From positions 12,468,187-12,532,186 of the forward strand of contig OZ020525.1 in the NCBI GenBank assembly GCA_963971425.1: a stretch of 64,000 bases of DNA. The letters are read 5' to 3'. The notes beneath the pieces are model-generated. The model ran no database searches, was not told the origin of the DNA, and was given only the letters and a program-made list of their open reading frames with translations. Position numbers and translations under genes: made by a program. Positions 4,931-31,888 of the stretch are shown here, piece by piece. Source of the DNA: Bryoerythrophyllum caledonicum (lineage: Eukaryota > Streptophyta > Bryopsida > Pottiales > Pottiaceae). The first letter of the stretch is position 1; every line of letters begins with the position of its first letter.

Positions 4931-5592
4931 CTAAACCCAAAGACCAAGTGTCAAATATGGGCTTTTTAAAAGTTCGGTCAGGTTCCTATGGTGTCAATTT
5001 TCAACATTCCACTTTGAAAATTTTACTGTAGTAGGACATTACTAAGACCTCAGTGGGAGAACAATTTTTTCCTAAATCCGACATACATTGAAAAAGTAAT
5101 AGGGTTTTGAATTGCAAATGGGGAGAGTGGGCACTTTGGGCACCTCCAAAAACTTTTCCTAGGACTCTCTATTGAATGTGAGATTTTCAATACTAGCAAT
5201 TGTTTTTTTTTCCCTTCATATTGTCCAAAAAAAAATTCTTGTCTTTAGTGAAAAATAGCATATTAACCCAAGTCAAACATTTTCACACATTGTTGGGCAA
5301 GGTACCTAAAAAACTTCTTCATTTCCACATAAAACTTAGAGATCTTCATATTTTTTACTTTTTTTTGTTTATCAACAATGTAGAGTGTAAATCTTTGTGT
5401 GGAGCATTGAGAATATCAATCTAAAACATTTTTAGTTCACAAAAAATTTAAACGCAAATTGGCAATTTTTGAACCTCCACTCCTTGCATAGTTGTTTTGA
5501 ATATGCTACACCCCTCTTCTACCCCTAAAATTTGGTGTGTAAGGAACTAACATCATGCTTAACACAATGGTAATAGAATTAGACTTTGTGTA

Positions 5593-5616
5593 CACTAAAT
5601 TTGATGTTTAGTGTAG
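5593..5616 (+). repeat. Left 24-bp terminal inverted repeat of the large element
   Basis: It is identical to the reverse complement of 24844-24867. The tip contains a near-palindrome (CACTAAA...TTTAGTG) that could form a short hairpin. Variants of CACTAAAT follow at about 5621, 5641, 5662 and 5682 and look like subterminal binding repeats. Confidence 0.9.
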
Positions 5617-5834
5617 GGGACACTAAATGCAAACCAGGGCACTAATTGCGAACAACGCAATTAGTGTAAGGACAATGTGTGACACTAAATGTCAACTCCA
5701 ACACTATTCACAAACTCTAGTAAAATTTGGAACAATTTCTTTTTTACTTGTTGACATTTAGTTTAGAGATCTAAAATTTCAGCAAAAGTGGGAAAGAAAA
5801 TTGTAGGAATATTGTTGATTATCCGCCCCTGTGC

Positions 5835-6165
5835 AGTAAAAATCCGAGCAACCTTTGGAAGGTCATAAGTCACTCAATTTTTTTTTGTAATTGGACATAT
5901 GAGGAGGTTTTTGACATTTGCGGAAAATGTAGATGCCGAAAAACACCTCATATGTCCAATTTGGACAAAAATTGAGTGAGTTAATTGAAATGGAATATCC
6001 ACATCTGGTTAAACATCAAATGAGTGTATTATTGGTGCTCAACACTGTGTTGCAAAAATTCCAGCAACATTTTGAAGGTTGTAAATCACTCAAATTTTGT
6101 CCAAATTGGACATATGAGGTGTTTTTTGACATCTACAAGAAATGTAGATCCTGAAAAACACCTTA
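5835..6165. repeat. Direct repeat containing a long hairpin
   Basis: A block of about 113 bp at 5835-5947 recurs as a diverged direct repeat at 6052-6165. Between them, 5870-5912 and 5938-5979 form inverted arms of about 42 bp around TTGGACATATGAGG, separated by about 25 bp. Sequence from about 5955 to 6050 is also similar to about 21538-21630 at the other side of the element. No coding capacity is seen. Confidence 0.7.
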
Positions 6166-6675
6166 AACATGCAATTAAGCAATTTTGCCCTCACCATTTA
6201 AAAGTGCACTTGAGTAAAAACGCGACCATTGTGCGCAAAATTGTCAAAATTGCAAAATTTCAAATTTTAATAAAGAAAAAAATGAAGTTTGTGCAAACAT
6301 ATTGTGTATCATCAAAATTGTTGATATAAAAAGCTATGTAATGGCATTTTCAACAAAGTTTCAATAAAATTTCAAAGAAATATTAAAAGGATTGTATTGT
6401 ACAAAAATACGCAATCACCAATAATGATACAAGAAGCAACAATTGCCAAATCATAAGTGGATATTCTAAATAGTACATGATATACAAATCAATGAAAATC
6501 AATATAAATGCATCTAAACATGGATATAAAGATGTAATTTAGCAATAGTAAAAATCTCTTTTATCCATAGAATTGCTCCACAACGTCCTACATAACCCTT
6601 TCAATATACTACCCTTGCACATACACTAAATGGCAATTATCATACACAATATACTTATAATACTTTGACTATCTA

Positions 6676-9060
6676 CTATGTAGCATTTAAGGTTGCTTGC
6701 AAGCGGTCGTCGTCGATAGCTTCGGTTTGCATTGCAATATATTCTAGTATGTGAGCCTTAGCCGATTGAAGAATGCGAATCCTACTTTCAACCTGCATTC
6801 CAAATACATTGCGCTTTCTCCACCGACAAGCACTAGTCATGATCCTTTCCGGTTCATCTACCCATGAAAAAATACATGCCTCTTTCTCTACCCAACTATG
6901 GCTCTCACCAGATGGCTCCCACAATGAATCCATGCAATTGGCATACCGTTGTGCAGATGACTCCACTCCATCAACAACCAACCCTCGAATGATGGGCCAA
7001 TACCAACAAACCTTCATCTTCAATCTCCATCGACCTTTTCCGTCTTCAATCACCTTCCCTACATAGAATGGTACACCACCTTCTACTTCTGCTCGATCAA
7101 CACTCAAGGCTACAAATTGTCCACAACCGATATCAGATTGTGGATTAAATGGTGGAAACGGGTCGTGGTTATCTTCATGGACTCCTCCTTCGCCTTGTTC
7201 CTCAACATGGTTGCGTTCCGTTCTTTGTGCCCTACGCACTGCTTGATTTGGTGGTCTTCCTCTACGAGGACCAAAATATCCTCGAGCCTCGGCATTTGGT
7301 AGCATAGCCACTATCTGGTCCACAGCAGTTATCTCGCGATTATCTTCACTTGGACCGTCCATTACATCCAAGGCTGCATTTTCTCCAGGTGCGGTGTTGG
7401 AGACCTCTGAAGGCCAAAATGGTGAAGAACAATGGTCGTTGTTGCGATTTTTGTGTGGAAATTCAGCTAGATAGAGTTTCAACTTTTCGGCCTCCTCTTT
7501 TGCATCACGATTCCTGTCCTCATGCTGCAATCTTTGAATGCACCTTTGTTTATATGCAATGAAGTCATCCAACGCCTTCAGCTCCCGCTCGTCTGCTTCA
7601 AATACTTTTGCAAAAGCTGGTCGCTCATCTCTACTTGGAAATGACCTCAAAGTCTTTGTTCCTGCCTCTGGTCCCCATGGATCCTTGCAATAATGCTTGT
7701 GTTGTACTCGAACCTCACGAATTCCCTCTCGATTATCCATATAAAATCGCATGTGGTGCGGAAATGTTATGCCAACCATTGCATCCGGACCTGTCAATAA
7801 GTGAGGAGTTATAAACAATTTCCAATCCCACACATTCTCTAACAGTCGAGCGCTAACAAATGATTCCGTAGGGGATGTTCCTCTTTCTATAAGACTAAGC
7901 ATCTCCTTCAACGAGTCCACGTCCGACCTCTTCAATGTACTTGATATACAACTGAAGCGTTGATCAATATCTTCATGTGTATGGCCCACTATAAGAAAAG
8001 AGAGTTCCACCTCTTGGAAAAAGCCCAATCTCACTAATGTAGCACATAGAGCAAACATATAAATGTTTTTATTCTCGCGTGTGCAGTTGTCCGCTTGGAT
8101 GCGCAATGTTGGTGGCAAAAATCCCTTCCTCCGCAACACATCTCCTATCACATATAACAATGTGCTGACGACCTGGTTGCTATCATGTTTGTGGTGAGCC
8201 CCAAACCACACATCGCAATATAAACCAATCCCATGTACAAGGGCCCCGCACAAGTGGGTCTTCACAAATCGGTGCTCAATGTTCTTCACAGTTTGACGCA
8301 TCCTTGGTACCATGGTTGTGTTTTGGTCCATGCCATCCACAATGATGCACATGTACAACTCAGGGCTAATATAACACGACCTCTTGAATATCCAATAATG
8401 CCTACGTTCCTCCATCTGGTTGCGGAGATGCAACATAAACAACTCTTTTATCTTTATCCTTGCATCCGCATTGGTGGTTCCCTCCATGGCACATTTATAC
8501 TCCCAACAATGATAACACTTTGAGAATCTCGAAAATGGAGGTACCTGGACGTGAGGATACCTGATGCGCCACATCTTCCGGAACGAGCTGATCGAAATGG
8601 TTTCCCCATTACAAATTCTCTTCACCTCCTCGTTCACGTAATTGAATACATCAAACTTTACTGTATTCATGGGAAGGAGAATAAGAGGCACGACTTCGTT
8701 GTCACTTTTACGGCGGATAGAACGATGTGGTTGAGGACAACCAGCTTCATCCACAAATGATTTAAAGCAGGCCTCTGCCGCGGACATTCTAGTGCTCTCT
8801 CTAACCGGGTCTGAAAGGGTGTTGCCATGAATCGCCGTCACTCTTCCATATATTAAACAATCTTTCTTCAATTGCTTAAAGCGCCTCTGCGAATAGCCAA
8901 CCCCAAGAGCGTAGCAGGCATTGCAAACTTGTTTGCCATCTAACTTCGTTACAAATTTATCCCGACGAGTTCCTTCCGTTCGTGTATAAAAAGAAACGAG
9001 CATTTGTCTCATCCACGTACTTCGTACAGAAAACTTGGAAGCCCATGCATTATATCGCAT
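6676..9060 (-). CDS. DUF7869-like protein with putative RNase H-fold core
   Basis: An open frame of about 796 codons. The first ATG is at 9060, but the open frame extends upstream, so the true start probably lies in an upstream exon. The conserved centre reads IIVDGMDQNTT (residue ~241), QADNCTRENKN (~324) and GHTHEDIDQRF (~361), in the order and spacing expected of an RNase H-fold (DDE-like) core. I recall this pattern from the DUF7869 family, common in repeat-rich plant and animal genomes. Before it lies a Cys/His-rich stretch, KCYHCWEYKC (~183), a possible zinc ribbon. The C-terminal ~140 residues are a separate region with a possible small beta-barrel (PFYVGKVIEDGKGRW). No stop interrupts it, unlike the DDE_1 copy in the same element. 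Whether it is the transposase is inference. Confidence 0.75.
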   Translation of the reverse strand: MRYNAWASKFSVRSTWMRQMLVSFYTRTEGTRRDKFVTKLDGKQVCNACYALGVGYSQRRFKQLKKDCLIYGRVTAIHGNTLSDPVRESTRMSAAEACFKSFVDEAGCPQPHRSIRRKSDNEVVPLILLPMNTVKFDVFNYVNEEVKRICNGETISISSFRKMWRIRYPHVQVPPFSRFSKCYHCWEYKCAMEGTTNADARIKIKELFMLHLRNQMEERRHYWIFKRSCYISPELYMCIIVDGMDQNTTMVPRMRQTVKNIEHRFVKTHLCGALVHGIGLYCDVWFGAHHKHDSNQVVSTLLYVIGDVLRRKGFLPPTLRIQADNCTRENKNIYMFALCATLVRLGFFQEVELSFLIVGHTHEDIDQRFSCISSTLKRSDVDSLKEMLSLIERGTSPTESFVSARLLENVWDWKLFITPHLLTGPDAMVGITFPHHMRFYMDNREGIREVRVQHKHYCKDPWGPEAGTKTLRSFPSRDERPAFAKVFEADERELKALDDFIAYKQRCIQRLQHEDRNRDAKEEAEKLKLYLAEFPHKNRNNDHCSSPFWPSEVSNTAPGENAALDVMDGPSEDNREITAVDQIVAMLPNAEARGYFGPRRGRPPNQAVRRAQRTERNHVEEQGEGGVHEDNHDPFPPFNPQSDIGCGQFVALSVDRAEVEGGVPFYVGKVIEDGKGRWRLKMKVCWYWPIIRGLVVDGVESSAQRYANCMDSLWEPSGESHSWVEKEACIFSWVDEPERIMTSACRWRKRNVFGMQVESRIRILQSAKAHILEYIAMQTEAIDDDRLQATLNAT

Positions 9061-9814
9061 GTCCAATAGGTACCTATTGCACTTTGCACGCTTGTAAGGG
9101 ATACCTTAGTTGCTGTAGTTTCTGTCAAGGATGCCTCGCTTGAGACTCTCCTTCTCCTATTCTGCATAGAATATGGACGACGCGTTGGTCTAACGTAAGC
9201 TAATCCATCTACATTGGGGAGATCTCGGATATTAGAGGCAGTACATTGAGAAAATGGCGAATTCTCATCTACGGGGTTTGAAGCTTGACTAGTGCGCCGA
9301 GACTTTCGGTGGATCTTGGTGTGTTAAACCGATCATGGAAATCAAATTCTGGAGCCATCATTCGTATAGGTGTTGTTTGAGATCCATCTTCACCATGGGC
9401 ATTTCTAATATTAGGTTCTACGGCCAAGACACGTAGCAAAGACCGGTGCCAACGAATGATCAAGCCATTGCACATGCCAAGACGCTCTCCTACAACCTCT
9501 CCGGTCCAATGCAATGCATTGTCTGCCCTAATGATACGCACCGCCACCTCGAATGGGAACAACTTTGACCCATTCAATTCCATGCCACTTTTGAATGCAT
9601 GCTCCCTTGTTCCCAAACCCACAACATCTCCACTTTCTGAGAGCAGTTCTACAGTCCTTTCCAATTCAGATGGAATAACCCCAACAGATCTTCTTTGACT
9701 TTGCCTTGCACGTGCTGCTCGTACTAATCGGGCCCCCACAGAACTATTGGAAAGGATATTATCTCTACGGGTGTTTGGAGGTGCCAAAGACGTTTGATAT
9801 GTGTTGGTCTCCAT
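9061..9814 (-). CDS. Upstream ORF, probable N-terminal part of the DUF7869-like gene
   Basis: A 181-codon ORF (9814-9269) starts at an ATG and ends just before the 796-codon frame. A second open stretch in another frame (about 9300-9105) bridges the gap, and the large ORF remains open up to about 9100. The three frames therefore follow one another with two offsets, which means either one or two short introns or two frameshifts. The 181-residue part is basic near its start (LVRAARARQSQRRS) and has no recognised domain. The bridging part contains an arginine run (QNRRRRV) that could be a nuclear localisation signal. I did not decide between introns and frameshifts. Confidence 0.45.
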
Positions 9815-10842
9815 TGTTGCTATCGGTACAAAAAAAACATAGCGGTTGCAAATTGGTCAACATATATGTAGACATTAACCTCTAAAAAATCAATTCAGGG
9901 TCAACAAGAAGGTATATACCACAATATAAAAATAAAATGCAAGAAATAATAAAATAGAACTAATTTTTAAATAGAAAACATGATATAGTTTATTTTCTTT
10001 TGTATTTGAAATTGTACATGAAAAATATATGTAACCTTGTCTGTTAATGTGTGAAATTGTTTGACTTGGATTTAGATGCACCAATTTTATTGAAGTTTAT
10101 TTCATTTTTTGATATTATCATTTCACCTCACAGTTTAATGAAGGCTTAAATACGATTTGGGGTTATTTAACAACAAATAAACATAAACTACAAATAATAT
10201 TTCAATATTTACCTCATAAGTTGTGCCTTTCTACTTCACATGTTCTCTTGCGAAGGACAAATGTTGCTTCATTGGGCCCACAATGATCTATGATAGATTG
10301 TTATAAGTTTGCCCCACGTTCACCTTGGCCAAATCCACAATACCTAATTCTTGGACCTTTGTCTCTTTTGCAGTATGTCTTAGTAGTCCTGGTTTACTTT
10401 GTAGTTCTACGCCTATCTTTTATACATTGTATGATGATAATCATTAGCGTCTTCTAGGTCATTTAGCTAGAACAATACAATAACCCCAAATTCCCAGTAG
10501 TTTGTTAAATCAATGTATCAAAAAATGTCTCTTTCACATGAGACGTTCTATGATAGATTCAACAACTTTTTACTATAGTTTTCAATCATAGGGAATTTAA
10601 GTTAACTACTACATGAATACACTTATATATTTTAGTAAACTTTAACTGCACATATCATAAGGTTTATCCTTTGAATAGTGCATTCTAGTTTTATTATTCC
10701 CTGCATGGAAATTGTTATGGTATTTTGAATAAAATTACTGACATATTTTTTTCAATAATCAATGCCTAAATTTTATGCCAAGTGTATATTCTAACTTGTA
10801 TTAGGTCATTGCAAACAAAAAAATCACAACTAATAGAGGTGT
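9815..10842. other. AT-rich non-coding part of the large element
   Basis: Nothing recognisable was found. It probably holds the upstream region of the minus-strand DUF7869-like gene. Only short low-complexity open frames occur. Confidence 0.5.
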
Positions 10843-11736
10843 TTAACCCCTAAAGGCCCAAGAGCTCCCCTCAAGGGACTCTTTAAGGTCTGGGCTAGTT
10901 TCTATGGTGTTAATTTATAACATTTCTTTTTGTAGATGGACATTTGGAAGCTTTGTGTGAGTCTAATTTTTTCCTAAATTCGACATTGTATGAAAAATCT
11001 ATAGGGTTTTGAATTTCAAATGGGGAGATCAGGCACGTTCGGCAACTCCAAAAAGTATTGCTAGGACAATCTATTGAATGTGAGATTTTCAAAACTAGAT
11101 AATAATATTATTTCCTTTCATATTGTCCAAAAATTCGCTTGTCTTAAGTGGAATATAGCATAATAATCTAAGTCAAACATTTTCACACATTGTCACACTT
11201 TGCCGGGCAAGGTACCTAAAAAACTTCTTTTTTTCCACATAAAACTTAGAGACCTTCATATTTCTTACATTTCTTATTGACCATTCGGATTATCATTCTA
11301 AAACATATTTAGTTCACAAAAAAATGAAACGTGAACTGGCAATTTTTGAACCTCCACTCGTTCCACATTTGCATAGAATATACTACACTCCTCTACCTCT
11401 AAAAATTGGTATTCTTGGAAATAACATCACGATGAACATGATGGTAATGTTCACAGACCTATATGTAAATTTGACACTAAGTGTAGTCAAAGTCTGCTGA
11501 TCCGCTCTAAGTAGGGAAAAAAGAACAATTTTCTCTACTTCAGACACTATAATCTTTCAATCCGTGCGGTCAAAATTTATGAAATTTGTGAGGACATTAA
11601 TGAAATAAGTCTTAATTTAGATCCTACGGTTAGATGTAGAAATAAAAGGTTTTGATTACCTCATTACTCATTACACTAGAACGAGTAGTTTTGAAGTGTT
11701 TTTGGTGTGAAAATGCCTTCGGCCTTTAGGGGTTAA
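10843..11736 (+). mobile_element. Complete TTAA-type MITE nested in the large element
   Basis: Intact copy, 894 bp including both TTAA sites (10843-10846 and 11733-11736). The tips are CCCCTAAAGGCCC and its near-perfect inverse, GGCCTTTAGGGG. Its interior matches the halves at 4931-5592 and 24870-25148 and the copies at 12853, 16330, 27690 and 33916. There is no coding capacity. It shows that the TTAA family has inserted into the large element as well as having received it. Confidence 0.88.
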
Positions 11737-12852
11737 GATATAAGTAGTAGAATTGCAATGACTAGGTCAATAAAAATTACTGATTTCCTTAGGAATACAA
11801 TTTAGTTTTATAACAAATAAACCATAGTAGTTTGCCTTGTACAAACAGTGGATAGAATCATGATTCTTGCTTATAGTGGGATAAAAATATATTTAGAGGT
11901 AGAATAAAATCTTTAATTTCTCCTCACCTCAAAAAAATCATTATTGAACTCTAATGTACTATTTTTGAAAAAAAATCAAAGATAATTCTCACCTAAGGTA
12001 TGTTGCAGGTCTTTGTTGGACAATCACTAGAATTGGATGGCCTTGAACGTTTGATGCTTATGTGGGCGCTAGTGGTAGTCATGTACTTCAGCTTTTGCCA
12101 AAATCCTACACAAATTGTTAAAAATTCAATTGGAGCTCTGCTTAAGACATTGATTGAAAAGTTCCTTGACCACCATCAAGGTCGCCATCAACATATTTCT
12201 TTCCAAAATAGCAAAATTGACCATGCTTGTTGATCTTTTAAAAAATCTCAATTCTTAATCAAAGCTTAAAAAATGAAATAATTAACCATGCTTGTCGATC
12301 TTCTACAAAAATATGAAGGATGTACAACATGACCCTCCATCATTCTGGTGTCACCAAACTTCAATCAAGGACGCGCTAGCTTTAGAAATCACCTGAAATG
12401 CCTTCATTTCCTCCTTAGTCATGGAATTCCTTACAAGCCGCAACTTAGTAATAGCCTGGAAATAGACACAAAATTTAGAAACAAGAAACAACTATTCGCC
12501 TTCAGAAGGTGACATCCGTAGTGCTCATCTATGTACAAAGAATAAGCAATATGCTATGTCCAACTTCATCAGACTTCCACAAATGCCATACACACAGATC
12601 AACAACATTTAACCCGAAACAAGCCGAGCTGAGTGTCTGCCAAATCAAGGAAAAAAAACTGGCAATTGTTTTATGAAGACTAAAAGGTACATAAGGCACA
12701 TGACTTATGTAAAAAGCCATGCCCAAACAATCCATACCTAGAACCTCGAAATGACGTGATCACTGAAATTGATAGCATTTTCTAAAACGGGCAAGATTCA
12801 CAACAGAAAAAGGAGGTATTGTTCAATCAAAGCAAGGAAACTTGTGAAACCA
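11737..12852. other. Non-coding region with possible exon fragments
   Basis: Two stretches look exon-like. On the plus strand, TTGCAG ends at about 12008 and opens a frame of some 75 codons with a hydrophobic stretch (LMLMWALVVVMYFSF). On the minus strand, a pyrimidine-rich tract ending CTATTTCCAG at about 12460 opens a short frame, ITKLRLVRNSMTKEEMKAFQ, that stops near 12354. Neither is recognised. They may be remnants of captured host exons. Confidence 0.3.
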
Positions 12853-13362
12853 TTAACCCCTAAAGGACCAAGTGTCAAAAATGGGCTTTTTGAAAGTTTG
12901 GTCAGGTTCCTATGGTGTCAATTTTCAACATTCCGCTTTGAAATTTTTACTATAGAAGGGCATTACTAAGACCTTAGTGGGAGAATTCTTTTCCCTAAAT
13001 TCGACATATAATGAAAAAGTTATAAGGTTTTGAATTTTAAATGGGGAGGGCGGGCACTTCAGGCACCTCCAAAAACTTTTGCTAGGACAGTCTATTGAAT
13101 GTGAGATTTTCAATACTAGCAAGTAATATTTTTTCCCTTCATATTGTGAAAAAAAAAGTTCTTGTTTTTAGTGAAAAATAGCATATTAACCCAAGTCAAA
13201 CATTTTCACACATTGTCAGACAAGGAACTAAAAAACCTTCTTCTTTTCCACATAAAAGTTAGAGATCTTTGTATTTTTTACTTTTTTTTTCCCACAACAA
13301 TATGTAGTGCAAACCTTCTTATCGACCATTCGGATTATCAATCAAAAACATACCAATGTGCT
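12853..13362 (+). mobile_element. Left half of a TTAA-type MITE
   Basis: It begins with a well-preserved TTAACCCCTAAAGGACCAAG tip and follows the family for about 510 bp, then stops near the start of a satellite array. No right end follows. It is a truncated copy, either broken by the expansion of the array or never complete. Confidence 0.8.
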
Positions 13363-13384
13363 ATTTAGTGCTCTGCTCCGAAAG

Positions 13385-14065
13385 AATTAAATCAGTGACC
13401 ATACAATCAGTGGCCATACATGTAAATCAGTGACCATACAATCAGCGGCCATACATGTAAATCAGTGACCATACACAAATCAGTGACCAAGCTTCTCTTA
13501 ACTCCAAATTCTCCAATACTGTTGGTACAAATCAGTCATGTCTGATCAGCCAACCACATCCTTCAAGCCTAAGAAAGATCACCATCTGTGATTGCAAGAT
13601 CAGTACCTGTAATGGAAATACACAATTCAGTCAACCACGTCCTTCAACCCTAAGAAAGATCATCATCTGTGATTGCAACATCAGTACCTGTGATGGAAAT
13701 ACACAATTCAGTGACCATACACAAATCAGTGACCAAGCTTCTCTTCACGCAAAATTCTCCAATATTGTTGGGTACAAATCAGTGACCAAGCTTCTCTTCA
13801 CGCCAAATTCTCCAGTACTGTTGGTACAAATCAGTCATGTCTGATCAGTCAACCACGTCCTTCAAGCCTAAGAAAGATCATCATCTGTGATTGCAACATC
13901 AGTACCTGTGATGGAAATATACAATTCAGTGACCATACACAAATCAGTGACCAAGCTTCTCTTCACGCAAAATTCTCCAGTACTGTTGGGTACAAATCAG
14001 GGACCATATACAAATCAGTGACCAAGCTTCTCTTCACGCCAAATTCTCCAGTTCTGTTGGTAGAG
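13385..14065 (+). repeat. Complex satellite array
   Basis: The array is built from short words (AATCAGTGACCATACA) inside a longer unit. That unit holds CAAGCTTCTCTTCACGC, AAATTCTCCAGTACTGTTGG and TCCTTCAAGCCTAAGAAAG. The long unit recurs at about 13475, 13620, 13720, 13785, 13850 and 13940, with internal deletions. There is no coding capacity. Confidence 0.85.
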
Positions 14066-14414
14066 AAACGTCCTGCACAGATACGGATAGACATGCCTTG
14101 TTATGACCATGTGTTGGAGCCAGGAGGTTGACACCGAATCTGTAGAATAGGTGGTGTTAATAAACACCGTTGGTTTTGAATGCACAAGACAGCGCCGCCG
14201 TTAGTTCTAAATCGGAGACTAAATCACCTGAAAAAAAAAAAACTCAATCACCTGAAGCACGAACGTCAATGTCAGCCTCTACAATCTTACTATTCTGTGC
14301 TCTGCTCCAAAAGAAATTCCTGACAACCCTCACAAGAGAGAAAGAATGCAATATTGATAGATGCCATCACAAAAGCACTAGCAGCCAATACAACATCTGA
14401 AATCCTACCTGTGA

Positions 14415-14515
14415 CGTGGACGTTGAGGAGACCCTAGCGCCGCAGGAAACCCTAGCGCCGCCTTTGTGGAAACCCTAGCGCCGCCTTTGTGGAAACCCTA
14501 GCGCCGCCTTCGTCG
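14415..14515 (+). repeat. Minisatellite of about 23 bp carrying the AAACCCTA telobox
   Basis: Four head-to-tail copies of a unit containing GAAACCCTAGCGCCGCC, the later ones separated by TTTGTG. AAACCCTA is the plant telobox, which also occurs in promoters of translation-related genes. A promoter role is only a possibility. Confidence 0.75.
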
Positions 14516-14540
14516 TGCTCTAGAACCTTTACCTCGTACA

Positions 14541-14562
14541 GAGGTGTGCGGCCGCACACCTC
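14541..14562. repeat. Perfect 22-bp palindrome
   Basis: The centre is GTGTGCGGCCGCACAC, extended by three matching bases each side. A related half-site, GGGGTGTGCGGCCGTGGACC, occurs at about 15251. It could be a protein-binding site or the centre of a former inverted duplication. Confidence 0.7.
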
Positions 14563-14639
14563 GTGACATAACAATTTCAAGGACCGTCCTAGAACCGTGT
14601 GACACCCGGAGTGAAGCTTCCACAGAACCTCGCTTGCAA

Positions 14640-15125
14640 AGTGAACCTCCTACGCCGAACACCTCCTTGCGCCGAGCACCTCCTTGCACTTGCGCACACC
14701 GGACCACCTCCGCACGCCAGAGCACCTCCTTGCACTTGCGCATGCCGGAGCACCTCTTTGCACACGCCGGACCTCCTTCTGACCTGCGCTGAGAGATCAG
14801 AGAGACTAGAGATTGGTGAGGGAGATGTGACTTGTGCCGAGACTATCAAACGCAGGTCGAACACAAGTCGACGTAAATAAGATCAAACGGTGAGACACAC
14901 AAGTCGACGCAGGTCAGATCTTCGAACGCAGGTGCACTAAACGTACGTCGAGCACCAAGTCGGCGCAGGTCCAACACAAGTCGAGCACAAGTCGACGCAT
15001 GTCGAGCACAAGTTGACGCAGGTCGAGTACAAGTGGACGCAGGTCAAGCACTAGTCGACGCAGGTCGAGCACAAGTGGACGCAGATCAAGCACCAGTCGA
15101 CGCAGGTCGAGCACAAGTCTGATAC
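14640..15125 (+). repeat. Two GC-richer minisatellites
   Basis: About 14640-14785 is a ~48-bp unit with GAGCACCTCCTTGCACTTGC in two to three copies. About 14900-15125 is a 23-24-bp unit around GTCGACGCAGGTCGAGCACA in eight or more variant copies. The open frames across them are repeat artefacts. The GC content stands out from the AT-rich surroundings. Confidence 0.8.
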
Positions 15126-15809
15126 TCTGCACACATACGATCACAGCAAGTAAACACTCTCACAACAAGTAACAGTTTGCCACACTAATCATCGCGGGTT
15201 CACAGGAGTTCCTACTTCGACTTTGCTCTCTTCGAGTTTGCACCAAGAGTTGGGGTGTGCGGCCGTGGACCTCCAGGGAAGCATTTCCAATGACCGCCCA
15301 AGATCCGGATATCACTGTGTGATATCCTTCAAATACCCTACCCTACACCAACCCTAGTTGATATGTAAGACTCGCACATTGACCTATATATTGGCATCAA
15401 GATCCAGCTGCTGGTGGAGGCCATCTAAGGGTCGTGGATCAAAGCAACGCGGTGCTTACGGTGTTAGAAGTTTTCACTTGTGACAATTTCATTAAGGTAT
15501 ATACAATTTGTGGTGGAGGGTATTGTGCAACTGCAAGAGAGGTTTAATTCAATGCGAGCCTTCTTATTAATGTCCATGATTGAATTTCTAATGAATGGCA
15601 CTAATCATGGAAGTCCTAGGGTTGAGGTGATGCTTGTGTTCTTTTGGCCTGGTGGTTTACCTTATAACCTTTTCATGTTTAATGTGATTTAAGTATACAT
15701 ATCATAGTGTTACATGTGTCACAAGAGTTGTTCATTGAGCCAATTACAATGTAAGTTGTAGCTTCTTTTAACTTTTTAACTTCAGTTGCAATTTGTATAT
15801 ACAAGCCCA
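15126..15809. other. Unassigned part of the large element
   Basis: It contains a 70-codon ORF (15480-15692, plus) without recognisable similarity. Nothing else can be supported. Confidence 0.4.
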
Positions 15810-15990
15810 TATTTTACCCAGTATAATATTTTTTTTTTATGGTTTAGCAAGACTAACACCTTCGTATTGAAGATTCTTTTACTAAGAGCTTTTATTTGGA
15901 GGTCATTTTAATATGTGAACCATATCATGTTCAAATACAACATCAGACATGGTCAATAATATGGTCACAAGTGGCACCTTCTGTGGTGTA
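15810..15990 (+). repeat. Dispersed repeat family X, copy 1
   Basis: About 180 bp sharing the ordered words TTTAGCAAGACT, CACCTTCG.ATTGAAGATTC, TTTGGAGGTCATTT, AAATACAACATCA and GTGGCACCTTCTG with copies at about 28128-28300 and 48450-48635. It is non-coding and of unknown class. Confidence 0.65.
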
Positions 15991-16039
15991 AGGATTAACC
16001 AACAATATTTGTATTTGTGTGTTTTCACACCTTTGGATT

Positions 16040-16300
16040 GAAGATTTATCAACTAAGATCTTTCATTTACAGGTCATTTTCTGTGGAGGTCATCTTTCAT
16101 TTGGAGGTCATATCAATTGGAGTTCATTTCATCTGGAGGTCATCTTTCATTTTGAGGTCATTTCATCTAGAAGCCATCTTTCATTTGGAGGTAATTTTAT
16201 TTGGAGGTCATCTTTTATTTGGAGGTAATTTCATTTGAGGTAATTTCATTTGGAGATCATTTTATTTGGAGGTCATTTCACTTTGAGGTTATTTCATTTA
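16040..16300 (+). repeat. Minisatellite grown from family X
   Basis: About twelve variant copies of an 18-22-bp unit, ATTTCATTTGGAGGTCATC. The unit equals a word inside the adjoining family X copy, so the array probably arose by local expansion of that copy. Confidence 0.8.
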
Positions 16301-16329
16301 TACATTAGTTAACTTGAAAGGCATATACA

Positions 16330-16905
16330 CCAACTTGTAGAGTTAGAAAATTGTACGATTACAAAAAATTGAAGTTATTACCAAGCCATTTTCACAAAAT
16401 TTCAAAGACTTTGACCGCACGGATTGAAAGATTATAGTGTTTGAAGTACAGGAAAGGGTTCATTTTCTTCACTGCGTTAAGTGGATCAGCAAACATTGAC
16501 TTCACTTGGTGTCCAATTTTTGCACTACACAAGGTCTAAATTCATTCCCACCATGTTAAGCATGATATGAGTACCTTGTACACCAATTTTTAGAGGTAAA
16601 TAAAAGGTGCAGCGTAGTCAAAAAAATTGTGCAAAGATTGGAGGTTCAAAAGTTGTTAATTCATGTTTTATTTTTTTGTGAACTTAATATGTTTTAGAAT
16701 GATAATCCAAATGGTCAATAAGAAGGTTTACACCACATAATGCCATGGGGAAAATAAAAAGTAAACAATATGAAAATCATAAAGTTTTATGTAGAAAGGA
16801 AGAACAATTTTTGGTAACTTGCTCGACAATGTGCAACAATGTGGGACAATGTGTCAAAATGTTTAGTTTGAATTAATATGCTAATTTCTTATTATCTTTA
16901 AGATT
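16330..16905 (-). mobile_element. Internal part of a TTAA-type MITE, inverted
   Basis: It matches the family from the GACTTTGACCGCACGGATTG block to the GTCAAAATGTTTAG block, in reverse orientation, with both tips missing. It preserves the uninterrupted sequence (GCACTACACAAGGTC) that defines the empty target of the 19.3-kb insertion. It lies directly upstream of the 1,345-codon ORF. Confidence 0.8.
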
Positions 16906-16959
16906 AAAAAACTATACAAACAAAAATAAATTTTACACCATATTAACAATTACTATTGT

Positions 16960-19900
16960 ATGGTAATATCATTCAAGTTTTTAGAGTGTGGCGTTATGGC
17001 ACCTAATATTGACAAGGACTGGGAGAGTCACGGCTGGTGGATTGCGGAAGTGGAGCCGTTTAAGCCATTCTTGTGGGTGACAATTTATTCCTTTGAGCTA
17101 TCAAAGCGTTCATCAGGATTGGGGAGACGTTGCGGCGAAATCCAAGCAATCTCTGGCCGACCCGATGATATGGTATATGTGACGTTGGTATCAGATCCAA
17201 ATACGACACCGGTGAAGTTTTCTCTTTCTAAGAAGTTGCTTCTAGCACCTGTCCCTGCAAGTCTCATCCAGAATCCAGGACAAGTGAAATTACTCAAATC
17301 ACTACAGACATTTTGGGTCAGCATACATCCTACGGTACGTACTGCTAGACACAATAATGTTTTGGCCTGTTTGGCGTTATCGCCAGAGATGGTGCTACAG
17401 GCAAAGAGGATTATGAATGAGCATATTAGATATGAGGCAATACGGACGGCCGACCCAACAAGTGCAGCAGCTCAAGCTCTACCAGAAGAACCAGAAGAGA
17501 CAGAACCAGTTTATCGTGCTATTGCACGTCGACCGCAATTGGATTGGCAACCTGCAGGGGAGAGGCGTAGGCGTGGGGACCAACAGTCTCCCGCATCCAT
17601 TGAAATGCCTACATCACCTCGTCCTCCAGTACGAAGGGAACGTCCTTCAAAGCGGCCACGACGGGATCAGAGGGATGTAGGTTCCGGTTCTGGTGGAGGC
17701 TCTTTAGGTTTGGATGCAAGAGGTACAAGGTTGATAGGAAGAGCTTCAGGATCAGGTGGCAGGGTTCCAAGGTCGAGACTCAGGGCGTCTACATGTCATC
17801 GTAGGGTCCCTACATCTACCCCGGGAGGTACTGTAAATTTGTCGCCCGTGACGCAGGAGGAAGAAGATTTCCACAATCTCGAAAACGATCCCGCAGAGGA
17901 TTCAGAGGAGGAAAGACAGATGCCAAATTATGTTCCAACTTCACATACATACAAAGTTCCAGTGCCTACAGTCGAAGAGATTTTGAAAGGATCGTTGTGG
18001 GGGAACATTGTGTTTAACGCACATGTAGATCGCATTGTCTCAGTGGAAAATCCAGAAACAAACCATCGAGTTTTATCACAGAAGAGGGCTACAGATGTGT
18101 ATAGCCGCTTACGAGATCCAGAGTTCAGAAACCGGGTGAGCAGATTGGTACTTCGACCGATTAGATACATTTTGCATACTACTGCCGACGACGGTACGAT
18201 TTCACAGGAAGAGGTGTCGTTTCCGAATGAAGGGGCAGCACGAGAGTTTGAGCGCGTTTTTCTTACACACGGGAGTGCTTCTGTAAATGGTGGTGTAGGA
18301 TCTCAGTTGGCTTGGCTTGAAGACCATATTATTTGGGAGCCAGTGGATGGGCAACATATAGTCGCAGCTTGCAAATTTGCACAGGAACAGTGGAGGAATG
18401 ATAAGATCCCGACAACTGAGTACCTCGAGTTTTTTGAGCGGCGGGAGGCAACCTTTGTGGTATATGATGATCGTCGTTTTTACATTGATAAGTCGGTGCG
18501 GATCAATGTAGCGGAGTGGGAGAGAACATCATATTCCACCGTGGAAGAAGATTTAAGGAAGCTTCGCCAGATTTGGGTTCTATATGGGAGGCCCAATAGC
18601 TTGGTCCGTGGGGATGATGCACGCAGAGGCATTGCTTTGGTGAGTGCCGCAAGCGCAGTGCATAAGTTACACAAGATGGCTGACGGTAATGAAGTTACGA
18701 TTAAGAAGCTGGCCAAGAACATGCAGGACTTGACCCGTCATGCCTGGAATCCGAGCGATGATTGTTTTGATGCTATCATTCGCTTCTGCAAAGACTACGA
18801 AGATGGACTTCTTTTTTATAGCAAGAAAGAAGAGACAAAGTGGAAGCAATATGCACAGAAGAGAGAGTTGGATTCCAATGTGGATGTGCGACCGAAACGA
18901 AAGGTGATGACTCAGAATTGGTTGAGGCCGCTCAGCTGGATTCCAGATTCACATTATCTACAGCTCATACGATCATGTGCAGCTAAGCCGTTGGGGATAA
19001 ATGGGCGTAGACCTCGCCAAGAGTATTACTTCAATGGTGTAGACGACAAGATTCCACAACGCCGTACCATTGCCTTTGCGGTCGATCGATTTCAGAGGGG
19101 AGAAGCGGTGATGAATATCATCCGTTGGTTGATGGTGGACAACAAAGAATTTGCACCAAGATCTATGGAGGAGTTCTTTTGCATATCCGTAATGAAGTAT
19201 TTTCCAAGGGGTAAGGGACAACTTTATAGTTTGGCAAAGCATTTGGATGCTCCTACGAAAACGGCATGGATTGCTCATGTACGAGAGAAGGTGTCTAAGT
19301 TGGAAGACATAGTCCATCTCATCCCTCCTTCCATCAAATATCATTATCATAATGTTGGAGCAGGGGGGCGTGGATACAATGGTTTATCTGTGGATGTGGG
19401 AGATTTGAGCACTGCTAGTTGGGAATGGCAAATGCAAGTTCAAAAGCCAGGTCATGATGATCCACAGAACTCTCTTATGGTTCGGTTTAGAAGAGGGTTA
19501 TTTCATTCAGATCATGTACGATTGGGAAAACCATGCTTGTGGGTGATTGATTGTCGGCGTGGCGGTGGGAGGCATGGAGATGGTCCATGGGATGATGAGC
19601 AATTTTCTAGAGCGTTTTCACAACTCGCATTATGGATGGCTAACATTGAACGATGGAACGTCATCTTTTTATTACCACCGGCCGTGTACGCCAATGAAGA
19701 GTTGTTCGCGAAGTTAAAGCTTCCTGAGGGTTGTTCTATGCGGCATGGAATTTGGGCATTTGATCCCAACTTGGTTGATCCATATGCTCTCGATTTTACA
19801 GAGAGTGGGCGCTTGCAACAAATGGTACAACCAATTGGAGCTGTTGTAATTTGCATGCAGCATCCTATTGGTACTTCCCCTGGCCCCAACTATGTTTCAG

Positions 19901-20997
19901 GGGATTGTCCACTTCCACTTGTATTTCAGGATTTATGGAGTGATGCATGCAAGCCTTCTGAAGCTGATCATCTGGAGAGATCACCAACGGAGCTGTCTAG
20001 GCTTGTGGGTCCGTACTTGCCTCAAAATTGGGGTTTAGTGGCATGTGGTATTTCCACGGCCATTCCTAGGATCCTTCAAGGGAATTTCCAGGGATCTGAG
20101 ATCATTGTCATTGACGATTGCACGGAGAGGGCTAGATTCCTAGACAATGAATTGTGCAACAATTTCCAAGGACAAATGTTGATCACTGAGACGACAAGTG
20201 GAAGAAATGTGGCTCCTAACACCGCACAAGAGACCGAAGAGGCGATTGGTGGAGACAGGCAAGAGAACGACGACACCGAGGAAGGAACTTTGAATGAGAG
20301 ATTGCCACGTTCACCTGGACCAGAATATTATTCGTCTGACAATAGCTTGACCGATGATGACTCAAGCACCGATGAAGAAGAAGTGGATAAGTCTCCTGCA
20401 AGGGAGAGGATTCCATCAACGCAGCCAACGGTGGGAGACACTTTGGGAGAGATGTCAGGGACACCCATGGAGAGGATGGAAGAGATTGGAGTATTGGATA
20501 GTTTGGTGGCAATGGGAAGAGAGGCAAATACATTAGTTTCTCAAAGACTTGAAGTAGAGCAAGAATTGTCCGATTCGCTTGAATTTTTCTCCGTACAGAT
20601 GAGAGTTCGGCAGCCTTCGGGGTCTTCTCAAGCACAAATTGAATCAGAGACTCAAGAGAGGGTTGTAGGTACTGGAAGTGATACGCGACCGATATTGACT
20701 TCCGTTCCAAGATCTGGCATATCGGAGGACGTCAGTGCCTTTCAGGGGGCTTTCTCCTCAGACCAAGAGATGTTGTTTAAGGATGGTTTCTACTATAATG
20801 ATGATGGTGTAAGACACACGCGGCACGGTGAGCCAGGCAGTTACGAATATGTTGAATCTGCGTCTATAAGTCTTGGAGATACGATACATCATCCGGTGCA
20901 GACTCATGAATTGTCCGCCATGGTAGCGAATGCCATAGGACACGTAGAGGGAGTCGAGTTGCCGGAGGATGATGAGAGCCTTTCTGCTATAGTATAG
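16960..20997 (+). CDS. Large unknown protein with possible ParB-like segment
   Basis: A single open frame of 1,345 codons. The first ATG is at 16960. A second at 16996 (MAPNIDKDW) follows a pyrimidine-rich stretch ending TTTTTAG and may be the real start. Order of parts: an N-terminal ordered region (~1-170); a disordered basic linker with a likely nuclear signal (SKRPRRDQR, ~228); a central region with NHRVLSQKRATDVYSRLRD, RLVLRPI and EPVDGQHIVAACKFA (~460), reminiscent of ParB/sulfiredoxin-fold domains; a region with CLWVIDCRRGGG and GDGPWDDEQFSRAF then WNVIFLLPP (~856-900), faintly like an adenine-methyltransferase core without a DPPY/DPPW motif; and an acidic disordered tail (DDDSSTDEEEVD, ~1140). 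No stop or frameshift over 4 kb argues for recent function. Both domain readings are inference, and I recognise no close family. Confidence 0.75.
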   Translation: MVISFKFLECGVMAPNIDKDWESHGWWIAEVEPFKPFLWVTIYSFELSKRSSGLGRRCGEIQAISGRPDDMVYVTLVSDPNTTPVKFSLSKKLLLAPVPASLIQNPGQVKLLKSLQTFWVSIHPTVRTARHNNVLACLALSPEMVLQAKRIMNEHIRYEAIRTADPTSAAAQALPEEPEETEPVYRAIARRPQLDWQPAGERRRRGDQQSPASIEMPTSPRPPVRRERPSKRPRRDQRDVGSGSGGGSLGLDARGTRLIGRASGSGGRVPRSRLRASTCHRRVPTSTPGGTVNLSPVTQEEEDFHNLENDPAEDSEEERQMPNYVPTSHTYKVPVPTVEEILKGSLWGNIVFNAHVDRIVSVENPETNHRVLSQKRATDVYSRLRDPEFRNRVSRLVLRPIRYILHTTADDGTISQEEVSFPNEGAAREFERVFLTHGSASVNGGVGSQLAWLEDHIIWEPVDGQHIVAACKFAQEQWRNDKIPTTEYLEFFERREATFVVYDDRRFYIDKSVRINVAEWERTSYSTVEEDLRKLRQIWVLYGRPNSLVRGDDARRGIALVSAASAVHKLHKMADGNEVTIKKLAKNMQDLTRHAWNPSDDCFDAIIRFCKDYEDGLLFYSKKEETKWKQYAQKRELDSNVDVRPKRKVMTQNWLRPLSWIPDSHYLQLIRSCAAKPLGINGRRPRQEYYFNGVDDKIPQRRTIAFAVDRFQRGEAVMNIIRWLMVDNKEFAPRSMEEFFCISVMKYFPRGKGQLYSLAKHLDAPTKTAWIAHVREKVSKLEDIVHLIPPSIKYHYHNVGAGGRGYNGLSVDVGDLSTASWEWQMQVQKPGHDDPQNSLMVRFRRGLFHSDHVRLGKPCLWVIDCRRGGGRHGDGPWDDEQFSRAFSQLALWMANIERWNVIFLLPPAVYANEELFAKLKLPEGCSMRHGIWAFDPNLVDPYALDFTESGRLQQMVQPIGAVVICMQHPIGTSPGPNYVSGDCPLPLVFQDLWSDACKPSEADHLERSPTELSRLVGPYLPQNWGLVACGISTAIPRILQGNFQGSEIIVIDDCTERARFLDNELCNNFQGQMLITETTSGRNVAPNTAQETEEAIGGDRQENDDTEEGTLNERLPRSPGPEYYSSDNSLTDDDSSTDEEEVDKSPARERIPSTQPTVGDTLGEMSGTPMERMEEIGVLDSLVAMGREANTLVSQRLEVEQELSDSLEFFSVQMRVRQPSGSSQAQIESETQERVVGTGSDTRPILTSVPRSGISEDVSAFQGAFSSDQEMLFKDGFYYNDDGVRHTRHGEPGSYEYVESASISLGDTIHHPVQTHELSAMVANAIGHVEGVELPEDDESLSAIV

Positions 20998-21807
20998 TAG
21001 AGCAAGTGATGTTTTCGTGGTAGATAGATTAGTATGATACATTTGATATGTTTAAGTTTAATATGATGTGTTTGATTTCAATATTTCTTTACAAAAATTT
21101 TAAATTGTTTGATTAACTTAGTATGTTTTTGCATATAATAAACAATGAGATACCTCACACTTTCTCACTGAATTGTGTCTTTTATTATTGCATCTTTTAT
21201 AAATTGTATTGTAGTGAGATGTACTCTAAAATTGTATAATCATACAAACGTGTATCTACAAAATGTAAGAACATCAATGTTACAATCTTAAAAGGGACAA
21301 AAATCAGATTAATAATCATGTATTCTTTATAAGTTCCAGCAAATAAAGAATGTATATCTCTTGCATGTACATATAGAAGCCAAAATTTAACGCTACAGGC
21401 ATGTAAATTTAGTACAAAAGTGATACTATTTTTTTTAATTTTTATTTTTTAACTTAAAAATTTCAAGAAAATCTTGTTGTTTTTTAGCGCCATTTTATGC
21501 ACTTAGCTAAGTGCATAATTGCTTAATTGTATGTTCTTATATGTCCAATTCAGGAAACATTTGAGTGAGTTCATGGCATTTGAATATCCACATATGCATA
21601 AATATGAAATAAGAGTGTTGAAAGTGAACAAATTTATGAATACATGAAGAAATATTTTTATTTCCAATTAAATGATTGGGTAAATGAAAGCTTAAATATG
21701 GAAGAAAAATAGAATTGTACCTTAATAATAATAATAATAATAAAACAAAGTACACAAAAAGAAATATAACTATGCTTAAAGAAAGGTAAATATAAAACTA
21801 TGAACTT
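20998..21807. other. Region between two converging genes
   Basis: AT-rich. About 21538-21630 resembles about 5955-6050 on the left side of the element. A TAA trinucleotide tract lies at about 21723-21743. It probably holds the 3' ends of the flanking genes. Confidence 0.5.
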
Positions 21808-23000
21808 TAACGTGCGCTAGGTAATTGAGGCACTTCCGATCCTTCAAAATATGTACGATGTCTCGCAACAATATCTTGAAGGTGTGGAAACAATTGACCG
21901 GTAGACCAAGTACCATCTATGTCTAAAGTCAAACCACATCTAATCATAGACTTTCTGGCATAAGACCTGTTGTCACAATCGACAAGCCGATTCACGTCTT
22001 CAATTGCATCAACTACTAATTGAAGAAAAAATCTCTTACCCGGATTGGTAAGTTTGCCGAACCATTGACCATCACCGTGGGGGTTGTTTTGCCAAGTGTT
22101 TTGTTGAATAAGCTCTGATTTCTTGGCCTCCCACCATTTCACCCACGCATCCTTGATTTTTGAAATGATGAAAGTGTCTGCCGGTTGGCAAAGGTGGATC
22201 GTACATGCCGGTAGATATCTCAAAATGGTTCATTTTTTAGCTAAAACTGCCGCTAAAGTAGGGGTGATATTGTGTGCCGAACAATTATGCACCCAAACAA
22301 ATTTAGTGCGGTTGTAAATATCGGGTTGATAAGCCTCTAGTTCTCCAAAATATTGGGGAAAATAGATTGGTCCATCCAACCTTTTGGACCGGTACGATAA
22401 CAAACCCCCAAAATATTATCCTTTAATCCATGGATGGGATAATTGCTACTCTCATTGGTGAAAATTAACATTGGAGCTTCTATAATGGATCTACGACCCC
22501 TGGAAATGCGAATGACCATGGTTATAGCATTCCCCCCGTTAACAACATCCGCGTATTTGACGGTGGAATCTCCTCAAAAACCTAGTGTTCACCCATTGTC
22601 CATGTTAATGGAAAAGTGGGTTTCATCAAGGTTTTCGATGAGATTTTCATCAAGTGTACCTTGGTGAAAATCGCGTTGTAAAACCACTAAGTGGTGGGCG
22701 GTATGCATCTCAATTCGGTTTCCTTTCTTAGGGCTACAAATTAAGCAACCTCGTTGTGATAATAAAACTATATAATGAACATCCATAAATTGAGTCACCC
22801 AAGATGTTGAAAGTTTTTTGATTAAAATACGGTTATCTCTAGGGTCTCTAGATTCATGAGTGTAAGGTGAGCCCTGAGCAATTAAAATGGATAAGGCAAG
22901 TTCAATGAGGAGTTTGGGGGAAAACTTTACCCCTAATCTCTTGTGTCCTTCAAAAGATTCAAGAAGCCGTCAATAGAGCCATTGGACCCAATCTGCCCGT
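21808..23000 (-). pseudogene. Decayed DDE_1 (pogo/jerky-type) transposase
   Basis: Homology is spread over several frames and open pieces: 22798-22589 (FSINMDNG, after NLDETHF with the first catalytic Asp), about 22580-22337 (GWMDQSIFP), about 22330-22240 (VWV.NCSAHN, where the second catalytic Asp is replaced by His), and 22223-21807 (THLCQPAD-like block, then KIKDAWVKWW). At least three in-frame TGA codons fall where tryptophan or arginine is expected, and there is a frame break near 22350. The TGG/CGA to TGA changes fit decay of methylated cytosine. The family is DDE_1 of the Tc1/mariner group, whose members duplicate TA, as the large element does. The C-terminus appears complete at 21808. 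Confidence 0.8.
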
Positions 23001-23837
23001 TTGGGTCTCCTCTCGGCAACAGCTTCGGTAAGAACTTGCTTACGTTTTCCATAGTTACTTTGGCTACAAGATATGATGTTGTTGTTGGAGGTCTCTATAG
23101 TTGGAAAAAAACATCCCGTTGTGCCCACCATCGACCCGCTCAGACCATGTTCATATTTTTTGTGCCCTAAAATGCTCCGGAAACATTTGTATGGTTCATG
23201 TATTGAGGCCTATGAGACCGTGAACGGCCTCATCCTCAATCATCTAGGCTATGACATTCTTTCGGGCGTGAATGGTGGAGACTTATTGTAAGGCTCGTAG
23301 GGGACGCTCAATCAAGGGATCCATCCCTGCAAAGATTTAAAATTTTATTTTCAATCCATAAATATGTAGATATGAAACAACGTAGTTAAAATAATTTTTA
23401 TATCACATCATTAAATCTTAAGAAACAAAAAAATAACACATATAAAATTCTTTACAACATCATGTGCAATTTTTATTGGAGCAATAAAATATGTAAGTTT
23501 CCATAATAGTCTTTTTTTTCCATTAAATAAATAAGTCTTGACTTGATAGAAGGATTTTGTGCCATAATCACCTTTGATCCACAAACACTATTGTTGTTCA
23601 AGTAGGCACCTAAAAAATTTCCTAACTTGACTCGAACTTGAGGTGACTATGTGTTTGTTTCAAAAGAAATTAAGACTTAGAGGTCTGAACCAAAGTCGTA
23701 TTTGATCAACACCTAGAAGAAAAAAAAACATGAGTAAATGGATTTGTGCTAGACCAGCTCAAATATGACTTCAACGTTCTCATGAAAATCTGTATTTTAA
23801 ATGCACTACGCTCTGGACATTATGTTGCCATTTCTGA
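23001..23837. other. Unassigned, possibly upstream part of the transposase pseudogene
   Basis: The minus strand around 23001-23330 may hold the degraded N-terminal part of the DDE_1 gene. I could not follow a frame. The remainder is AT-rich and without recognisable content. Confidence 0.35.
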
Positions 23838-24165
23838 AATGGTATGGCAAGTGACAATGTGACTAAGAACCAACAACTTATGGACGGATAAAGTATTCTC
23901 TTGTAAAGAGTTCATATGGTCATTACACATCCACTCTTCGTCCAATGGACAATTGCCAGCACAAATTCGACTCCATTTTCCACTTAGAAACCCGTAACAT
24001 AAATGCATTATGTTCACAAGATTGTGTTCCTGACTCCAAAATGCTATGGCAAGTGACATTTCAACCAAGAACAAACAACATATAGACGGATGAAGTATTA
24101 TTTTGTAGAAGTTCATCGCTTCTAACGAATCCATTCTTTGTCCGATGGACAATTGCCACATCAAT
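23838..24165 (+). repeat. Tandem duplication with period of about 202 bp
   Basis: Copy 1 starts AATGGTATGGCAAGTGAC at about 23838 and copy 2 AATGCTATGGCAAGTGAC at about 24040. Each ends near CAATGGACAATTGCC or its variant CGATGGACAATTGCC. The 114-codon minus-strand frame across it is not supported as a gene. Confidence 0.7.
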
Positions 24166-24843
24166 ATGGAATCAACAAATTACAAAGAGAGCGTGATGTG
24201 CTCAGAAATCACTTTCAATTGAAAACGCAAGAGTTAGAAATACTATACTATGTGCAGAATAGCTTATGCATTGTTATGTGTTTTCAAGTGATGACAAAGG
24301 ACGACATGTTTGACAAAGGACGACATCACCAAATAATGTGTCAGGAAAAACTAATGAAGGACAAACATGTGAAATGAAATAGAGAATTTACCTCAAATGA
24401 TGCTGTGAATTATCAAAAAATCAAACTCGAATGTGCTTCCAAGGTGGATCTGTACAAAAGAAGCCAACTCACAAACTATCACTATTCCATATGGATTACT
24501 TGTTGCCCATCCCTCAAACAAAATATAGTCCCCCCAAATTCTTGAAGTATCCAAAACAAAAGTGCACAAAATATCTTGCCCTCAATACAAAAGCGCTCAG
24601 AAAAACCCCTGAATTGTGTAGGAAGGCTTGCAAAACCTTCATGAGGAAGAGAAGGTTGGGAGGGTGGCTCATTGGAGGAGATAAGAGGGGTGGCTGGAAG
24701 TGGAGCCCGGATCCCCATAGGAGGTAAAGATGCTCATTGTATTAATGAAGTTGGCAGCCAACTCATGATGTAGCATCAATGATGTCACTAATCCTCAACT
24801 TGTTGACATTTAGTGTAGTGGGGTGACTACACTATTTGTATGA
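24166..24843. other. Right subterminal region of the large element
   Basis: Short frames only. Subterminal CACTAAAT-type motifs begin at about 24800. Confidence 0.4.
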
Positions 24844-24867
24844 CTACACTAAACATCAAATTTAGTG
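24844..24867 (-). repeat. Right 24-bp terminal inverted repeat of the large element
   Basis: It is a perfect inverted copy of 5593-5616, followed by TA at 24868-24869. Subterminal variants (GACATTTAGTGTAG and CTACACTATT) precede it at about 24804-24836 and mirror those at the left end. Confidence 0.9.
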
Positions 24868-25148
24868 TAGTGCAAAAATTTGACACCAAGTGAAGTCAAA
24901 ATTTGTTGATCTATTGAATGCAGGGAAGAAAACGAACCATTTATTTGACTTCAAACACTATAGTCTTTTAATCCGTGCGGTCAAAGTTTATGAAATTTTG
25001 TGAGCATGTTACTAAATGAGTCGCATTTGAGATCTTATAGTCAAAATTAAAAATTGAAGTTTTTGTTTTCTTCTTTATTCATTGCACTAGAATCCAAAAA
25101 TATTGAAGTGTTTTTGGTGTGAAATTGTCACGATACCTTAAGGGTTAA

Positions 25149-30435: not shown

Positions 30436-30767
30436 CAGTCTAAAGGCATAGTAAATTGGATGCGCTCGACCAGAATCATCGTTCTATATTAATATCGCTG
30501 CCATGGCATATTCGGATGCCGAGGGGTTGATGATGAATTGGCGTGACCAATCTGGATTTTTGACAACTCGATTACTGGCAAGGCGATTCTTGATGAATTC
30601 AAACACTTGATCTTGTTCTTTCCTCCATTAAAAAGGGGTAGACTTGCAAGTTAAAACACACCGGGATTGTCCTACTTCGGCTAAGTTTGGCATAAATCTG
30701 TTATGGTAAATAGTGGTTCACCATAATCTTCCGACTTGTTCTCTTGTGGTTGCATCTCTAATATTCT

Positions 30768-31718: not shown

Positions 31719-31888
31719 GAAGATTCGTCAGTGTGATAGGTAATTTCACCTTGCGAAGATTGGACTAAATAGCTGGAGCATGGTTTTGGCACAACTTGAA
31801 TGCTAATGCGGTTGTAAGCGGAACCGATCTTCATCTTTCCTTTGTCCCAATAATTGACTGTGCCCACTTGTCGTAACCACAGTCGACC

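Follow-up and report, generated by a model that had tools for sequence, protein, structure and literature searches.

In excerpts of published accounts, transposases of the CMCT group (EnSpm/CACTA, Mirage, Chapaev, Transib, Plavaka) are described as carrying C(2)C and H(3-4)H in the interval from the second D to the last E, and their elements as having mostly 5'-CA..TG-3' termini and target duplications of 2-5 bp (PMC12730594). The same excerpted literature attributes C/DxxH in this interval to hAT, MuDR, P, Kolobok and Dada, and target duplications of 4-10 bp to MuDR, 4 bp to Ginger1 and 6 bp to Polinton/Maverick (PMC10045372), a size of 15-25 kb to Polinton/Maverick (PMC6431247), the target TTAA to piggyBac (PMC7351741) and a silencing-countering activity to VANC of the MuDR-type VANDAL transposons; membership in a superfamily is recognised there when a transposase converges with a named superfamily in an iterated search (PMC4455052). 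Here we report on 64,000 nucleotides of contig OZ020525.1 of Bryoerythrophyllum caledonicum (hereafter the window), in which an earlier note had described positions 5593-24867 as one 19.3-kb multi-gene transposon with a TA target duplication. We are highly confident that this stretch is a nested pair, of which the inner element would move by cut and paste through a predicted DDE/D transposase with domain DUF7869, assisted by a second, accessory gene (gene 2).

The outer element comprises the following features:

5593..24867, no strand assigned: outer pogo/Tc1-type element as found, with TA at 5591-5592 and 24868-24869
5593..5616, plus strand: left tip of the outer element
24844..24867, minus strand: right tip of the outer element
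5593-6165 plus 21540-24867: outer element minus its nested part, 3.9 kb
21807..24179, minus strand: interrupted gene for the pogo-like transposase of the outer element

Over 26 bp, TA included, its ends (5591-5616 and 24844-24869) show 100% complementarity, and its flanks, once joined at a single TA, align uninterrupted (78.5% over 438 columns) to 16828-16392, where the surrounding repeat has another copy. The insertion of an element at TA 5591 is real, since the joined flanks continue unbroken through another copy of the repeat, and the earlier note was right about the perfect inverted tips, the TA duplication and the empty site. Its view of the 19.3 kb as one transposon did not hold. A search of the genome (437 Mb, 894 contigs) gave many other copies of these tips, with at least 45 matches for the left end and at least 40 for the right end. 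The genome also gave 58 matches to chlorophyll a/b-binding proteins, as would be expected of a green plant. All nine tip-sharing copies examined (L013-L018, L020, L021, L026) lacked window positions 6166-21535, the sequence left of 6166 passing directly into 21540 with 84-94% identity over 133-147 columns. Because these copies join across without the 15.4 kb, 6166-21535 is a later insertion, which accounts for the size of the outer element here; the giant cargo-carrying branch of TA-inserting transposons that had been suggested reduces to an element of normal size, 3.9 kb, with a nested insertion. The check proposed at the time, for copies with the same tips and the same gene content, turned against the outer tips as borders of one large element, since the tip-sharing copies lack the stretch of the inner genes and, among ten copies measured, L013-L016 have 3.7-4.0 kb and both L022 and L023 0.57 kb. 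The four others measure 3.0 kb (L027) and 8.0-8.9 kb (L017, L018, L021), the latter three with other inserts at other positions. The insert of L017, 5 kb long and flanked by duplication AATA, is a decayed relative of the inner family in which both genes survive as remnants, and that of L027 is a 2.4-kb relative whose duplication agrees at three of four bases. Inserts in L018 (2130-6433, about 4.3 kb) and L021 (2110-6929, about 4.8 kb) are without DUF7869 or gene-2 matches.

TA was found on both sides of the window copy and of nine out of ten other copies of the outer element, L018 having CA on the left. Domain DDE_1 reached 35.3 bits in L026 (Pfam cut-off 22), and the window pieces 21807-22229 and 22589-22969 gave sub-threshold matches to DDE_1 and HTH_Tnp_Tc5. 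On account of these TA flanks and of the match above cut-off, the outer element without its nested part is an ordinary pogo/Tc1-type transposon of about 3.9 kb.

The inner element has borders, tips and target duplications of its own:

6166..21535, no strand assigned: inner two-gene transposon, 15,370 bp
6166..6184, plus strand: left inverted tip, AACATGCAATTAAGCAATT
21517..21535, minus strand: right inverted tip, one mismatch in the window copy
6162..6165: CTTA target duplication, left copy, 4 bp
21536..21539: CTTA target duplication, right copy, 4 bp
6682..9814, minus strand: DUF7869 gene, predicted DDE/D transposase, in three frames (9272-9814, 9075-9299, 6682-9075)
7963..8337, minus strand: three conserved Asp codons of DUF7869 (8335-8337, D257; 8089-8091, D339; 7963-7965, D381)
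9860..16929, no strand assigned: middle region separating the two divergent genes; contains a GC-rich block and tandem repeats
16930-20997, plus strand: gene 2, up to 1355 codons, likely start ATG 16996 (16996..20997), no known domain

With the two ends and the two genes as queries, 20 copies with ends 15.0-15.9 kb apart were retrieved. The ends of nine copies, the window included, are 99-100% identical to those of the window, and 14400-16380 is present in all nine. Perfect 4-bp duplications flank 13 of 18 full-length copies examined, against a mean of 0.9 and a maximum of 6 in 2000 rounds of shuffled partners; among the remaining five, one has 5 bp, one agrees at three of four bases (C7:16.4 Mb) and three are without duplication. 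At the full-length copy C11:14047994-14063707 (L036, L065) the duplication is CAGTT, of 5 bp instead of 4. Target sites differ (CTTA, AACC, CATG, CACC and others), and both genes were among the matches listed for 17 of the 18 copies, those listed for C10:17.8 Mb including gene 2 but not DUF7869. Each strand of the genome has 797 occurrences of the tip motif AACAYGCAATTAAGCAATT, against 0 for its reversed control. Among 100 tip places listed, 36 had neighbours at less than 30 kb, 34 of them inward-facing and 1.6-25 kb apart, and nine of ten further tip pairs read showed perfect 4-bp duplications. There is also a second subfamily, with tips AACACGC..., gene 2 about 66% and DUF7869 about 89% identical; its single copy read measures 13.0 kb and has duplication CCTA. 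The earlier proposal of a large multi-gene transposon, perhaps of a new superfamily, was therefore partly sound: a large repeated two-gene unit with no known transposase family by sequence does exist, but its borders lie at 6166 and 21535 and its duplications are of 4 bp, not TA. Just inside the tip (window 21496-21535; L017, L027, L073, L074), in some copies at one end and in others at both, lies a near-palindrome, TGCACTTRGCYAAGTGCA, a possible candidate for an enzyme-binding site. In the window, neither an Rfam nor a tRNA scan gave a match.

The longest window frame of the DUF7869 gene has 809 amino acids (minus strand, 6676-9105); this frame and that of gene 2 (1355 amino acids, plus strand) are the two long open frames already recognised in the earlier note. 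As the gene is split over three frames, the window copy probably makes no complete transposase. On the 809-residue frame, 41 residues separate D339 and D381, with the conserved motif GHTHEDIDQRFS at the latter. The structure model displays an RNase H-like core of DDE/D-type fold with the three Asp and additional N- and C-terminal domains, and integrase folds were among its top structural matches; Foldseek on its own is weak for this RNase H-like assignment. By prediction, DUF7869 of the inner element would thus carry the D, D, D/E triad expected of RNase H-like enzymes. With E values up to 0.5 admitted, a Pfam scan of 45 DUF7869 proteins matched no transposase or integrase family in any of them. 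With DUF7869 and gene-2 profiles, a PDB sequence search gave no convincing match; viral contigs searched for both proteins contained no confirmed relative, and a BFVD fold search gave weak matches only, none at E <= 0.001. In the genome, the best 150 of 3608 candidate DUF7869 domains were scored, many of them in frames of 1066-1087 amino acids. Relatives are named in Riccia, Branchiostoma, Lytechinus, Darwinula and Mytilus, and the domain is widespread in eukaryotes. The word DUF7869 is absent from open papers of PubMed Central (PMC), which is weak evidence since only open papers were covered and the name is recent; in the same papers, the letters HTHEDID/GHTHEDI led to no transposon paper, judged by title, and no description of the inner element was found, again weak evidence.

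Gene 2 is open in the window copy, and seven relatives of it were found. Among the best 150 of 862 candidates scored for its 160-residue core, DUF7869 lay less than 20 kb away at 60 places (162 DUF7869 places, among the matches listed). The two genes were divergent in 60 of these 60 cases, while random placement of DUF7869 gave a mean of 0.5 and a maximum of 3; at the other 90 places, no DUF7869 was within 20 kb among the matches listed, and the limited length of that listing may be the reason. Gene 2 diverges by 0.3-0.6% among seven young copies, and its ratio of nonsynonymous to synonymous substitution rates relative to the window is 0.18-0.24 for seven copies, while three copies in a more decayed state give 0.31-0.44: gene 2 is under purifying selection. 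Pfam and NCBIfam gave only sub-threshold matches for gene 2 (e.g. N6_N4_Mtase at E 0.081), and its structure prediction was unusable (mean predicted local distance difference test score 37.9). A DGQH stretch (codons 473-476) presumably resembles, by eye, the DGQHR motifs of ParB/DndB type. Between the two genes, a GC-rich block (14426-15119; 55% at 14500-15249) contains 23-bp GGAAACCCTAGCGCCGCCTTTGT and 21-bp tandem repeats and is a possible shared promoter region.

Inverted tips, a fixed-length duplication and a predicted DDE/D enzyme place the inner element among DNA transposons of a known kind. A 3.9-kb pogo/Tc1-type element would first have inserted at TA; the 15,370-bp two-gene transposon would later have entered it at CTTA (6162-6165), with duplication of these 4 bp. 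The DUF7869 enzyme would bind the inverted tips of about 19 bp, excise the element and join it to a target cut with a stagger of 4 bp. Gene 2 would act as an accessory factor, probably in end binding or in escape from host silencing, and may, by analogy, counter silencing as VANC does for VANDAL.

A repeat of about 900 bp is found in the window at 10840-11736, 12853-13352, 16392-16852, about 4990-5592 with 24868-25467, and 33917-34786; one copy hosts the outer element, and others lie within the inner element. With its inverted ends TTAACCCCTAAAGG, the copy at 10840-11736 resembles a TTAA-inserting miniature inverted-repeat transposable element. At 29743-31727 (minus strand), two open frames look, by eye, like the remnant of a Gypsy-type retrotransposon polyprotein.

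A single TA-inserting pogo/Tc1-mariner transposon of 19.3 kb with two cargo genes could account for the perfect outer tips, the TA duplication and the empty site, but is ruled out for practical purposes: its inner 15.4 kb is absent from all nine tip-sharing copies examined, occurs at many other places and comes with tips and duplications of its own. This nest illustrates how exact tips and an exact empty site can yield a false giant element. Separate nested insertions of the two long genes were also rejected, the ends, both genes and the middle co-occurring at near-constant spacing and orientation. DUF7869 and gene 2 could alternatively be cargo of a large non-autonomous, 4-bp-duplicating element whose transposase is encoded elsewhere. 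Many tip pairs are only 1.6-9 kb apart, 27 of 34 pairs are without either gene among the matches listed, and DUF7869 matches no Pfam transposase family, all of which would suit such an element. However, DUF7869 has a predicted DDE/D fold with three Asp, holds a fixed position near one end and is widespread in eukaryotes, and we consider the cargo explanation very improbable.

A tentative alternative, unlikely in our opinion though less so than the single-transposon and cargo explanations, is that the inner element belongs to an already catalogued superfamily (e.g. as a divergent branch of Ginger, IS3EU or CMCT, or under an entry of Repbase), only the host, the size and the partner gene being new. 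As far as the excerpted sources go, the 4-bp duplication fits both Ginger1 and the 2-5-bp range of CMCT (PMC10045372, PMC12730594), and the integrase folds among the top structural matches point the same way. The lack of Pfam matches argues against it, as does the interval from the second to the third Asp: there, C(2)C occurred in 0 of 45 DUF7869 proteins and H(3-4)H in 5, unlike the CMCT signature, and C/DxxH in none, unlike that of hAT, MuDR, P, Kolobok and Dada. That DUF7869 is not named in open PMC papers is a weak point on the same side, given its recent name. The inner termini are AA..TT, those of CMCT mostly CA..TG, and the length of the duplication fits CMCT. The variable targets differ from the TTAA of piggyBac. 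With Ginger1, Ginger2 and IS3EU, a 4-bp duplication is compatible and an integrase fold is predicted, without any Pfam integrase match. Ginger tips begin with TGT, whereas those of the inner element are AACA..TGTT, and its second gene is unlike anything known; a 4-bp duplication and a predicted integrase-like fold are what it has in common with Ginger1.

The outer element shares with Tc1/mariner-pogo transposons the TA duplication, inverted tips, a DDE_1 transposase remnant and a size of 3.9 kb with 0.57-kb derivatives, with no notable difference. The inner element has the size class of Polinton/Maverick and, by prediction, an integrase-fold enzyme, but just two long genes and a 4-bp duplication; a Polinton-type self-replication is unlikely because none of the six window frames scanned with Pfam was recognisable as a polymerase or packaging gene. 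VANDAL elements with VANC are likewise plant transposons that carry another gene beside that of the transposase; gene 2 shows neither a known domain nor a sequence link to VANC, and the analogy is hypothetical. Among DDE/D integrase-fold enzymes, retroviral integrases, Mos1 mariner and IstA have no Pfam-detectable sequence relation to DUF7869, which is set apart by GHTHEDIDQRFS at its third Asp and by the extra N- and C-terminal domains of its model. For a Pfam domain of unknown function present in plants and animals, the present reading suggests a testable function, that of a DDE/D transposase, and an activity assay is made practical by copies that are nearly identical and have open frames. 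Repeat annotation may have missed or split the two-gene transposon described here, which is abundant and young, measures 13-15 kb and encodes a partner protein of unknown kind under selection. As set apart by the Pfam scan and the signature comparisons, the inner element may represent a new superfamily. We regard as evenly balanced the broader proposal that an ancient superfamily of DNA transposons, so far unrecognised and spread over plants as well as several animal lineages, has DUF7869 proteins as its transposases, and that this host harbours a very abundant, recently active giant branch of it with an obligate, divergent partner from an undescribed family.
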